From: an uncultured Trueperaceae bacterium
GTDB taxonomy: Bacteria; Deinococcota; Deinococci; Deinococcales; Trueperaceae
Assembly: GCA_913057685.1 (NCBI GenBank)
Contig: CAJXOA010000023.1
Location: 1-38,893 of the forward strand
DNA length: 38,893 nucleotides
Direction of reading: 5' to 3'
Every line of letters begins with the position of its first letter. Within the stretch, counting starts at the first letter, position 1. Below, piece by piece: positions 10,592 through 13,594 of the stretch. The position numbers and the translations under genes were made by a program. The notes under the pieces are model-generated. The model did not search any database, had not been told where the DNA came from, and worked only from the letters and a program-made list of their open reading frames with translations.

Positions 10592-12532
10592 TCAGGGGTC
10601 GAACGCGACCCGCTGACCGGTCGGCACGAACGCCACCCAGCGCCGCATCCCGTCCAGCGCGATCTCGGTGCCGTCGTCCGCGACGAAGCGCACGCCGTCC
10701 GAAAGCCGCCAGCTGCCCTCCACCCGCCGGCCGCGCAGCAGCAACGTCGCGTCCCCGCCGCGCGTGACGTCCATCGACACGCGCCCCTCGGGGTCGCCCG
10801 GGATGGGCGTGACGTCGAGGCGGGCGATCACGACGGCGTCGAGCAGGACCGGTGCGCCCCCCGCCGCCGACGCCGGCTCGCCTTCCCGAATCCACCGGTA
10901 GCGGCCGGTGTCCCCCTCGAGGCGGAAGCCGGAGGCGTAGGCGCCCCCCCAATCGATGCGTACCTCCGTCGCGGACGGCGCGCCCACCGGCGCGGTCGGC
11001 CGCACCTGCGCGACGAGGCGCGGCGCGTCGTCGTCCCCGACGTAGCGTTCCGCCGCCGCCCGCAACGCCGCCCCCTGCGCGTACGTGTTGAACGGCGCGC
11101 GCCCGCGCGCCGGATCCTGCACGAACAGCGGGCCCTCCAGGAAGGCGTCGAGGGAGTCCGCCGCGCCGTCCCCGATCCGGGCGAGGGCGGCGGGCGACCC
11201 CCCGACGTGCACGAGGACCGCGTCCGCATCCGCGGCGAGGTCGATCATGTACGGCCGGGCGCTGCGGATCGGACCGACCTCGCGCGGCTCCTCGGCGTCG
11301 AAGAACGGAAGCAACCGCGTCACGCCCCCCTCGACCGGGATCTCCGCCGTCCACGTCGCCTGCGCCAGACCCTGCTGCGGGTACCCCCCGACGTTGTCCA
11401 GCACGACCGCGAGGGGGGTCGGGACCGGCCGGGCGGGCGGCGGCACCGGTTGCGCCGGCGCGCCGCCCGCCCCCGCCTCCCCGTCGGGCGACGCGGCGCG
11501 CCCGAGCGCGTCGGCGGGCGCGTCGGGGTCGCCGTCCGGCTGGCCCGGCCGGGCGGCGTCCCCCCCGACCGGCCCGTCGGGTCGCGGCGCCCGCGCCGCC
11601 GACCCCGGCGCCGCCTCGCTCGGGACGTCCCGCGGGATCGCCTGCACGGTCGGCGTCGGCAGCGGACGCGCGGACGGCACGCTGGCGGTCGGCGCGACCC
11701 CCAACTGTTGGGCGCGCCCGACGTCGGTCGTCAGGTTCGGCGCGTCCAGGTCCCGCCCCTCGGGCGCCCCGACGCTGGGGGTGGGCGCCGCCACCGAGCG
11801 GGCGTCGGCGTCGACGTCGGGCGTGGGGGCGCGCACCCCCCGCACCGGGGGCGCCTCCACCGCGGCGTCCGGCGCGGCGAGGGCGCGCGCGTCCGCCTCC
11901 ACCTCCGGCGCGACCTCGGTGAGGGCCGTCGCGCCGTCGCTGGGCTCCGGCGACGGGGTCGGCACCGGCAACGGCTCGGTGGTCGCGTCGACGGTGACGT
12001 CGGGCGTCTCGATCTCGGGCACGGCGGCCTCCACCGACGGTTCGGGCGTCGGCAGGGCCGCCTCGGGGGCGGCGGTCCGCGGCGAGGGGGTCTCGAGCGG
12101 CGTCGCCGCCTCCGCGTCGTCCGCCGGCGCTTCGGACGCGTCGGCGGCGTCGGGCGGCGCCGGCGGCGCCGGCGCCTCCGCGGCGGGCGGCCCGTCCGCG
12201 GCGGGGTCGCCACCGCTCTCCGCGTCGGTCGCCGGGTCGCCCGGCGCGGGCCGGCCGGTGGCGTCCGCCTCCACCTGCGGGCGGGGGGCGGGCTGCGCGA
12301 CCGCGTCGTCGGCGGTGGCGGGCGCCTCCGCCTCCGCTTCGGCGGGGGTGCCGAGGTCGACCACCAGGTACGTCTCCGGCGGGTCGCTCGGCGTGAGGTC
12401 GAGCGTCACCATGAGCGCCAGCAGCACGAGGGCGTGCAGCAGCAGCGACAGGCCCGCCGCGCGGCGGCGGTCGGGGTCGCGCCACACCCGCACGACGGCG
12501 TTGGCGACGGCGGCCCGCATCCCCCCGCTCAT
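10592..12532 (-). CDS. TonB-like inner-membrane anchor fused to a DUF3048 domain
   Basis: 646 aa. The N-terminus is cytoplasmic and basic, followed by one membrane segment (about 24-45) containing Ser29 and His33 in SLLLH. This Ser-x3-His pattern is the one in the TonB membrane helix that contacts ExbB/ExbD. Residues 60-370 form a long Ala/Pro/acidic linker long enough to extend across the periplasm. Residues about 372-646 match DUF3048 (YerB family): AVVLDNVGGYPQQGLAQA, EGGVTRLLPFF, GPIRSARPYMIDLA, VHVGGSP and FNTYAQG. No TonB C-terminal domain is seen. The ATG overlaps the exbD stop by four bases and exbB lies just upstream, so the three genes form one unit. DUF3048 has no firmly established function to my knowledge. 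The role proposed here, force or signal transfer from the proton-driven ExbBD motor to a cell-wall-facing domain, is inference. Confidence 0.85.
   Translation of the reverse strand: MSGGMRAAVANAVVRVWRDPDRRRAAGLSLLLHALVLLALMVTLDLTPSDPPETYLVVDLGTPAEAEAEAPATADDAVAQPAPRPQVEADATGRPAPGDPATDAESGGDPAADGPPAAEAPAPPAPPDAADASEAPADDAEAATPLETPSPRTAAPEAALPTPEPSVEAAVPEIETPDVTVDATTEPLPVPTPSPEPSDGATALTEVAPEVEADARALAAPDAAVEAPPVRGVRAPTPDVDADARSVAAPTPSVGAPEGRDLDAPNLTTDVGRAQQLGVAPTASVPSARPLPTPTVQAIPRDVPSEAAPGSAARAPRPDGPVGGDAARPGQPDGDPDAPADALGRAASPDGEAGAGGAPAQPVPPPARPVPTPLAVVLDNVGGYPQQGLAQATWTAEIPVEGGVTRLLPFFDAEEPREVGPIRSARPYMIDLAADADAVLVHVGGSPAALARIGDGAADSLDAFLEGPLFVQDPARGRAPFNTYAQGAALRAAAERYVGDDDAPRLVAQVRPTAPVGAPSATEVRIDWGGAYASGFRLEGDTGRYRWIREGEPASAAGGAPVLLDAVVIARLDVTPIPGDPEGRVSMDVTRGGDATLLLRGRRVEGSWRLSDGVRFVADDGTEIALDGMRRWVAFVPTGQRVAFDP
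11741..11908 (-). repeat. duplicated about 29-residue linker segment in the TonB-DUF3048 protein
   Basis: Residues 209-235 and 238-264 are clear copies: PEVEADARALAAPDAAVEAP against PDVDADARSVAAPTPSVGAP, both ending in an Arg-containing segment. A weaker third copy may follow (VGRAQQLGVAPTASV, from about 271). Confidence 0.65.
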
Positions 12533-12939
12533 CCCCCCGCAGCGATCGCGACGCGGGTCGCGCCGGCCCGACGGATCGCGTCCATCACCCGCACGGTCGT
12601 GCCGTGCGCCACGCGCTGGTCGGCGCGCAGGATCACGGTGCCGGCGTTGCGTTCGGCGAGGAGCGCCTGCAACGCCGGCACCAACTGCGCTTCGCTCAGC
12701 GCCTCCCCACCCAGGAAGATGCGTTCCTCGGCGTCGAGGGTGACGGTCGGGAGGCCCTCGGGTTGCGCCGCGGCGCTGCTCGCCTGCGGCAGGTCGACCG
12801 GGAGGCCGTTCTCGAGGGTGATGAAGGTCGTGGAGACCATGAAGAAGATGATCAACAGGAACACGACGTCGACCATCGGGGTGAGATCCAGGATCGGCGA
12901 GGTACGCCCCCGGCCCCGCCGTCGCGACGTCACGCGCAC
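12529..12939 (-). CDS. exbD: ExbD/TolR-family proton-channel subunit
   Basis: 136 aa. A short basic cytoplasmic start leads into one membrane helix with the family signature LDLTPMVDVVFLLIIFFMV (about 18-36). Its aspartate (LTPMVD) is the proton-carrying residue in ExbD and TolR. The rest is the periplasmic domain, with LPVDLPQA and ILRADQRVAHG. The GTG start at 12939 gives MRVTSRRRGRG. It lies 13 bases after exbB and overlaps the TonB-like gene by four bases. It could equally be called TolR-type; the adjoining TonB-like protein favours ExbD. Confidence 0.92.
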   Translation of the reverse strand: MRVTSRRRGRGRTSPILDLTPMVDVVFLLIIFFMVSTTFITLENGLPVDLPQASSAAAQPEGLPTVTLDAEERIFLGGEALSEAQLVPALQALLAERNAGTVILRADQRVAHGTTVRVMDAIRRAGATRVAIAAGG

Positions 12940-12952
12940 GCCCCGACCCCGC

Positions 12953-13594
12953 TCACGCGGCGGGCGACCGCTCGCCCGCGTCGCGGCGCGACGCCACCGC
13001 TTCGGCGACCTCGCCCATCAACTCCTCGCGCCGCCGGTCGATCTCGAGGAGCATCGCGTCGACGCGGCTCGAGAGGACGTTCTGCCCGATCAGGGTCGGG
13101 ATCGCCACGATCAACCCCGCGGCGGTCGTCACGAGCGCCTGCCCGATGCCGTCGGCGAGGGCGGCGGGGTTCCCCGTCCCCTGCGACGAGATCTCCGCGA
13201 ACGCCACGATCATGCCGGTCACCGTCCCCAGCAACCCCATGAGGGGGGCGATCTGCGCGATGGTGGCGAGCGGCCGGATGCCGCGCGCGAGGCGTTGTTC
13301 CTCCTCGAGGCTGGCCTCCTGGAACGCCGACTCCAGCGCCGACCGGCCGTACGGGAGGCGCGTCAGCGCCGCGCCCAACACCCGCGCGACCGGACCGCCG
13401 TGGGTCTCGCAGGCGGCGAGGGCGGCGTCGAGGTCGCGTTCGCGGACCGCGGCGTTCACCGTCCGCATGAGCGCCTCGTTGTCCGCCGGTTCGCGCGACA
13501 ACGTCCGGAACCGCACGAGGAACACGTACAGCGCGTAGATCGAAACCGCGATGATGGCGACCAGGATCGGTCCGCCGCTCAAGATCAACTCCAT
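12953..13594 (-). CDS. exbB: ExbB/TolQ/MotA-family proton-channel subunit
   Basis: 213 aa with three membrane helices: near residues 4-24, then about 110-133 (QIAPLMGLLGTVTGMIVAF) and about 150-172 (LVTTAAGLIVAIPTLIGQNVL). The large cytoplasmic loop between helices one and two is typical of MotA/TolQ/ExbB. With ExbD it forms the proton-driven motor complex in the inner membrane. The ATG is preceded by AAGGGGG, so this gene uses a conventional ribosome binding site, and a TAGGAT hexamer lies 21 bases upstream. It is the first gene of exbB-exbD-tonB/DUF3048. Confidence 0.92.
   Translation of the reverse strand: MELILSGGPILVAIIAVSIYALYVFLVRFRTLSREPADNEALMRTVNAAVRERDLDAALAACETHGGPVARVLGAALTRLPYGRSALESAFQEASLEEEQRLARGIRPLATIAQIAPLMGLLGTVTGMIVAFAEISSQGTGNPAALADGIGQALVTTAAGLIVAIPTLIGQNVLSSRVDAMLLEIDRRREELMGEVAEAVASRRDAGERSPAA

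Follow-up and report, generated by a model that had tools for sequence, protein, structure and literature searches.

A three-gene cassette from an uncultured Trueperaceae bacterium of the phylum Deinococcota joins exbB and exbD to a gene for a 646-aa protein in which a TonB/TolA-like N-terminal half is combined with a DUF3048 end domain. We consider it likely (probability about 0.7) that this is an ExbBD-driven force transducer ending in DUF3048, perhaps for Tol-like envelope work without Tol-Pal. Gene architecture, domain content, linkage in two phyla, the absence of TonB_C domains and of receptor plugs, and the joint inheritance of motor and end domain as a cassette are shown by sequence analysis. 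Docking, energisation and topology are inferred, and the ligand and role are guesses. The cassette lies in a window (the whole stretch of DNA analysed) of 38,893 nucleotides, and the genome to which it belongs (2.29 Mb) encodes a single copy of ExbD, as do those of its relatives.

All three genes lie on the minus strand. The 213-aa product of exbB (12953..13594) is a MotA/TolQ/ExbB proton-channel subunit (MotA_ExbB PF01618, E=3.9e-30) that scores below the NCBIfam equivalog cut-offs for both ExbB and TolQ. The 136-aa product of exbD (12529..12939; PF02472, E=5.3e-31) keeps the conserved membrane aspartate, Asp24, in the stretch LDLTPMVDVVF. A gap of 13 nt separates exbB from exbD, and the exbD stop overlaps the start of the transducer gene (10592..12532) by 4 nt (ATGA). 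Compared with the nearest relative (L041), dN/dS is 0.03 for exbB, 0.08 for exbD and 0.22 for the transducer, which shows that purifying selection maintains all three genes; the linker of the transducer alone gives 0.20. In Trueperaceae, ymdB and a PEP carboxylase gene occur near the cassette; they were judged to be unrelated, and the neighbours give no functional clue.

The transducer has an anchor helix, DRRRAAGLSLLLHALVLLAL (residues 24–42; 12407..12463, minus strand), identified by sequence, alignment and profile, in which Ser29 and His33 are embedded. Arginines preceding the helix predict an N-in/C-out topology, which remains an inference. The helix is followed by a motor-box-like strand, YLVVDLG (residues 55–61; 12350..12370, minus strand), and Ser-x3-His helix and strand together define a TonB/TolA-type N-terminus. 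The term motor box follows PMC12204202 and PMC10771500; the corresponding part of TonB is bound between the protomers of ExbD (PMC10771500). The strand is present in all transducers compared, from Trueperaceae (f1), a neighbouring Marinithermaceae-like family (f4) and Atribacterota, and in the alignment it is conserved at least as well as the Ser/His pair. Ser-x3-His is not universal: it is absent from f4 and most Atribacterota have Ser-x3-Asn, with Ser-x3-His carried by the basal Atribacterota sequence L229. When a helix profile built from the N-termini of 25 proteins, drawn from both phyla and from the second transducer class of Deinococcota described below, was compared with PDB sequences, TolA ranked first and in register on RRA..S...H, but with E=0.6, below significance; 14 of the 25 members match the NCBIfam TolA model, again weakly and below significance. 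The linker (residues 63–365; 11438..12346, minus strand) is Ala/Pro-rich, with 25% Ala and 20% Pro over 303 aa. An extended linker spans about 0.31 nm per residue, which gives a rough reach of some 94 nm. The periplasm of D. radiodurans is 121 nm wide (PMC9388160).

The end domain is a DUF3048 domain by both sequence and fold. Its N-terminal part (residues 372–496; 11045..11419, minus strand) matches PF11258 (E=2e-26) and its C-terminal part, DUF3048_C (residues 532–627; 10652..10939, minus strand), matches PF17479 (E=8.3e-8). An AF2 model based on 37 sequences (pLDDT 90.5) matches Bacillus subtilis YerB (PDB 2psb) with E=1.5e-23, 27% identity and a TM-score of 0.76–0.79, and a Foldseek search with this model gave no PDB relative apart from YerB. 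Across the 37 sequences a set of enzyme-like charged residues is invariant (D, N, E, E, R, R, R, H-x-GG) and is partly retained in B. subtilis YerB. An extra Trueperaceae copy (L043:3089-5038, minus strand) fuses a trypsin-like protease to DUF3048 and has no exbBD neighbour, which fits DUF3048 as a binding or targeting module. The open-access literature searched held nothing useful on YerB/DUF3048 function, with DUF3048 described there as a lipoprotein of unknown function, nor on Truepera together with ExbD. A first-pass annotation, made from the sequence alone, had proposed an ExbB-ExbD motor paired with a TonB-like anchor carrying a complete DUF3048 domain in place of the TonB domain, encoded by genes that overlap or nearly touch, with Ser29 and His33 in the helix. 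These claims hold, and its linker of about 310 residues is approximately right. It missed the YLVVDLG strand, and Ser-x3-His holds only partly as a family signature.

The association between motor and DUF3048 extends well beyond the window. Among Deinococcota, DUF3048 occurs in 43 of 111 genomes and is confined to Trueperaceae and f4; all 36 of the DUF3048 proteins with a detected N-terminal helix have exbBD directly upstream. DUF3048 is also found in 46 of 50 Atribacterota genomes, where the long form (helix and linker of ~175 aa) has exbBD upstream wherever the contig reaches far enough, and where exbBD is missing beside all ten short paralogues, whose N-terminus is no more than a signal sequence. 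Overall, exbD lies directly upstream of 65 of the 67 DUF3048 loci with a helix and long linker (Trueperaceae, f4 and Atribacterota), compared with none of the 70 loci with short N-termini (Firmicutes, Patescibacteria and the extra Atribacterota copies). Long types were defined by a helix hydropathy >1.9 and a linker >100 aa, and only loci with ≥900 bases upstream were counted. The corresponding Fisher p of ~2e-37 overstates the independent evidence because the rows are related; the real weight lies in the two phyla and in the paralogue contrast inside Atribacterota. Recurrence of the trio in Trueperaceae, f4 and Atribacterota shows that the cassette is more than a chance arrangement.

The two long-linker proteins without exbD upstream (L158 and L160) start with a signal peptide or a lipobox. 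At loci with sufficient sequence upstream, every TonB-like anchor with DUF3048 had exbD directly upstream, and the same helix without an exbBD neighbour, which the first-pass annotation had set as a refutation, did not occur. Its statement that YerB-like proteins are normally simple lipoproteins mostly holds, since most of those elsewhere are lipoproteins or carry a short anchor, with no exbBD. No exbBD lies beside the DUF3048 proteins sampled outside the two phyla (Firmicutes, Patescibacteria, Actinomycetota, Chloroflexi and a few others), all of which have short N-termini; this sample was limited to the 80 top-scoring of at least 590 matches, and other phyla may have been missed. Diderm Halanaerobiales have DUF3048 without exbBD, which indicates that the motor is not required for every diderm use of DUF3048. 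At L118 (1-3585, plus strand) and six other Atribacterota loci, a gene for a large TPR protein (~1195 aa, with a weak CsgG-like start) lies directly upstream of exbB, resembling the TPR genes near Tol and vWA transducer operons.

Motor and end domain are inherited together. In a tree of concatenated ExbB and ExbD, motors partnered with DUF3048 (f1, f4 and Atribacterota) are split from the others with 100/100 support. The tree is unrooted, has one row (L060) on an artefactually long branch and does not show which came first. In other Deinococcota (f2, f3 and f5), exbBD is followed by a similar helix and linker, but the transducer ends in a C-terminal domain of ~115 aa without a Pfam family. Fold comparison of its AF2 model (pLDDT 85.7) gave no more than a borderline match, to Treponema Tp0624 (E=1.5e-3). 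That related motors in a single phylum carry exchanged end domains shows the modularity of these transducers. In the tree of transducer domains, Deinococcota (100/99) and Atribacterota (99/93) each form a supported group, and an AU test does not reject holding the two together (p=0.18). A single origin is neither shown nor rejected, and convergence is not claimed. Loci with the alternative domain include L075, L079, L080, L083, L088 and L093, with the pattern C-x-V-x-V-D-x-R-G-L ... V-F-L-R. A conserved secreted protein of ~200–234 aa without a Pfam family is encoded directly after the alternative transducer at L080 (9437-10138, plus strand), at L083 (9360-9971, plus strand) and in eight other loci. 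In f5, at loci of the L082/L083 type, the ExbB frame was found at only ~126 aa.

The gene inventory of these genomes appears to offer little else for the motor to drive. The window transducer has no Pfam match to TonB_C (PF03544), a domain also absent from the rest of its genome and present in 1 of the 111 Deinococcota genomes, a draft MAG. TonB-dependent receptor plugs (PF07715) number zero in the window genome and occur in 2 of the 111, both draft MAGs. The isolated TonB_C and plug matches in two Trueperaceae MAGs (G076 and G088) lie on short contigs, and from this and the draft quality they were judged likely to be contamination. With one ExbD and so few TonB_C domains and plugs, DUF3048 appears to be the sole output of the sole such motor. 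Two Atribacterota genomes also encode a canonical TonB_C protein elsewhere. Pfam and NCBIfam searches gave no match to the TolA C-terminal domain in the window transducer. OmpA-type domains are rare in Deinococcota (9/111 genomes), and that of the window genome sits in a 1737-aa frame rather than in a Pal-sized protein. SLH domain proteins are common (30/31), and this combination agrees with the SlpA/OmpM-type wall tether known for Deinococcota (PMC9388160, PMC10628300). Tol-Pal has been reported only from Gracilicutes (PMC12204202).

These observations suggest a model in which an ExbB-ExbD proton-channel motor would have its own dedicated force transducer. The TolA/TonB-type helix would anchor the transducer and dock on ExbB, the strand after the helix would bind between the ExbD periplasmic domains as that of TonB does, and the linker of ~300 residues would cross the wall. 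The YerB-fold domain would then hold on to a ligand, either in the wall or at the outer membrane, and proton flow would cause the motor to pull or cycle it. Its purpose may be Tol-like, that is, to hold wall and outer membrane together or to remodel both, in diderm Terrabacteria that lack Tol-Pal. Coupling of the DUF3048 transducer to the motor is very likely, as inferred from linkage, motif, motor-box strand and cassette inheritance, although docking has not been modelled; the first-pass proposal that the proton gradient drives DUF3048 is to this extent supported and not shown. The Tol-like role and the ligand are guesses; the envelope role taken by itself falls short of an even bet, and nothing ties the cassette directly to outer-membrane integrity.

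Three other explanations could account for the cassette. The main alternative is that DUF3048 does not serve as a grip for pulling but acts as an enzyme of the envelope, or regulates such an enzyme, with the motor setting its activity or position. The invariant charged residues and the protease fusion in the Trueperaceae paralogue favour this view, but with YerB as the only PDB fold relative it has no catalytic precedent, and the fusion suits a targeting module at least equally well, so that we regard it as unlikely. A TonB system of the usual type, with DUF3048 in place of the TonB C-terminal domain but still serving nutrient uptake by opening receptors in the outer membrane, would account for the motor family, the helix, the motor-box strand and the linker rich in proline, all of which are as in TonB. 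Against it, PF03544 is missing from the window genome, the canonical TonB_C proteins of the two Atribacterota genomes exist separately, and plugs are confined to two contaminated-looking MAGs among the Deinococcota. TonB-type import is set aside because its receptors are wanting, and it is very unlikely. Equally hard to sustain is a plain membrane anchor with exbBD as mere neighbours and no energy coupling. The variable Ser-x3-His motif and the want of a docking model leave room for it, but adjacency is held across two phyla with overlapping genes in the window, long and short DUF3048 types are split perfectly within Atribacterota and almost so overall, the motor-box strand is present, and motor phylogeny tracks the end domain.

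A motor-driven DUF3048 transducer would be of wider importance. Energised outer-membrane work is unexplained in diderm Terrabacteria without Tol-Pal, and a motor with DUF3048 as its sole output is a concrete candidate. The cassette also provides a first functional context, motor-linked and envelope-spanning, for DUF3048, which is widespread in Firmicutes and Patescibacteria and has no known role. A bolder reading is that this is an undescribed transducer class, the sole ExbBD output in Trueperaceae and Marinithermaceae-like Deinococcota and near-universal in Atribacterota, with a Tol-like role in these diderm Terrabacteria; we hold this only tentatively, with the balance slightly against it.

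Among known systems, YerB/DUF3048 lipoproteins (PDB 2psb) share the two-part domain but, unlike the window transducer, begin with a lipobox or a short anchor, continue with a linker of only 20–60 aa and have no exbBD. TonB-ExbB-ExbD shares the motor, the N-terminal half and the proline-rich linker, and differs in the PF03544 domain and plug-bearing receptors that the window genome lacks. Tol-Pal (TolQRA) shares the motor, the RRA..S...H helix (the top profile match) and the motor-box strand; the window transducer is without the TolA C-terminal domain, and OmpA/Pal-type domains are scarce in the phylum. That the energised device is undescribed, as the first-pass annotation supposed, is only partly correct: the DUF3048 version was not found in the open-access literature searched, but transducers of this kind are known. 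The closest precedent is the vWA force transducers, motor-driven proteins whose end domain is not that of TonB (Williams-Jones et al. 2025, PMC12204202), a paper whose main text mentions neither Deinococcota nor DUF domains. They share with the window cassette TolQ/ExbB-type motor genes, a TonB/TolA-like helix, a motor box, a disordered linker, a C-terminal domain unrelated to TonB/TolA and, in some cases, a nearby TPR gene. The window transducer differs from them in its end domain, which by Pfam and fold is DUF3048 rather than vWA, and in its taxa, Deinococcota and Atribacterota.
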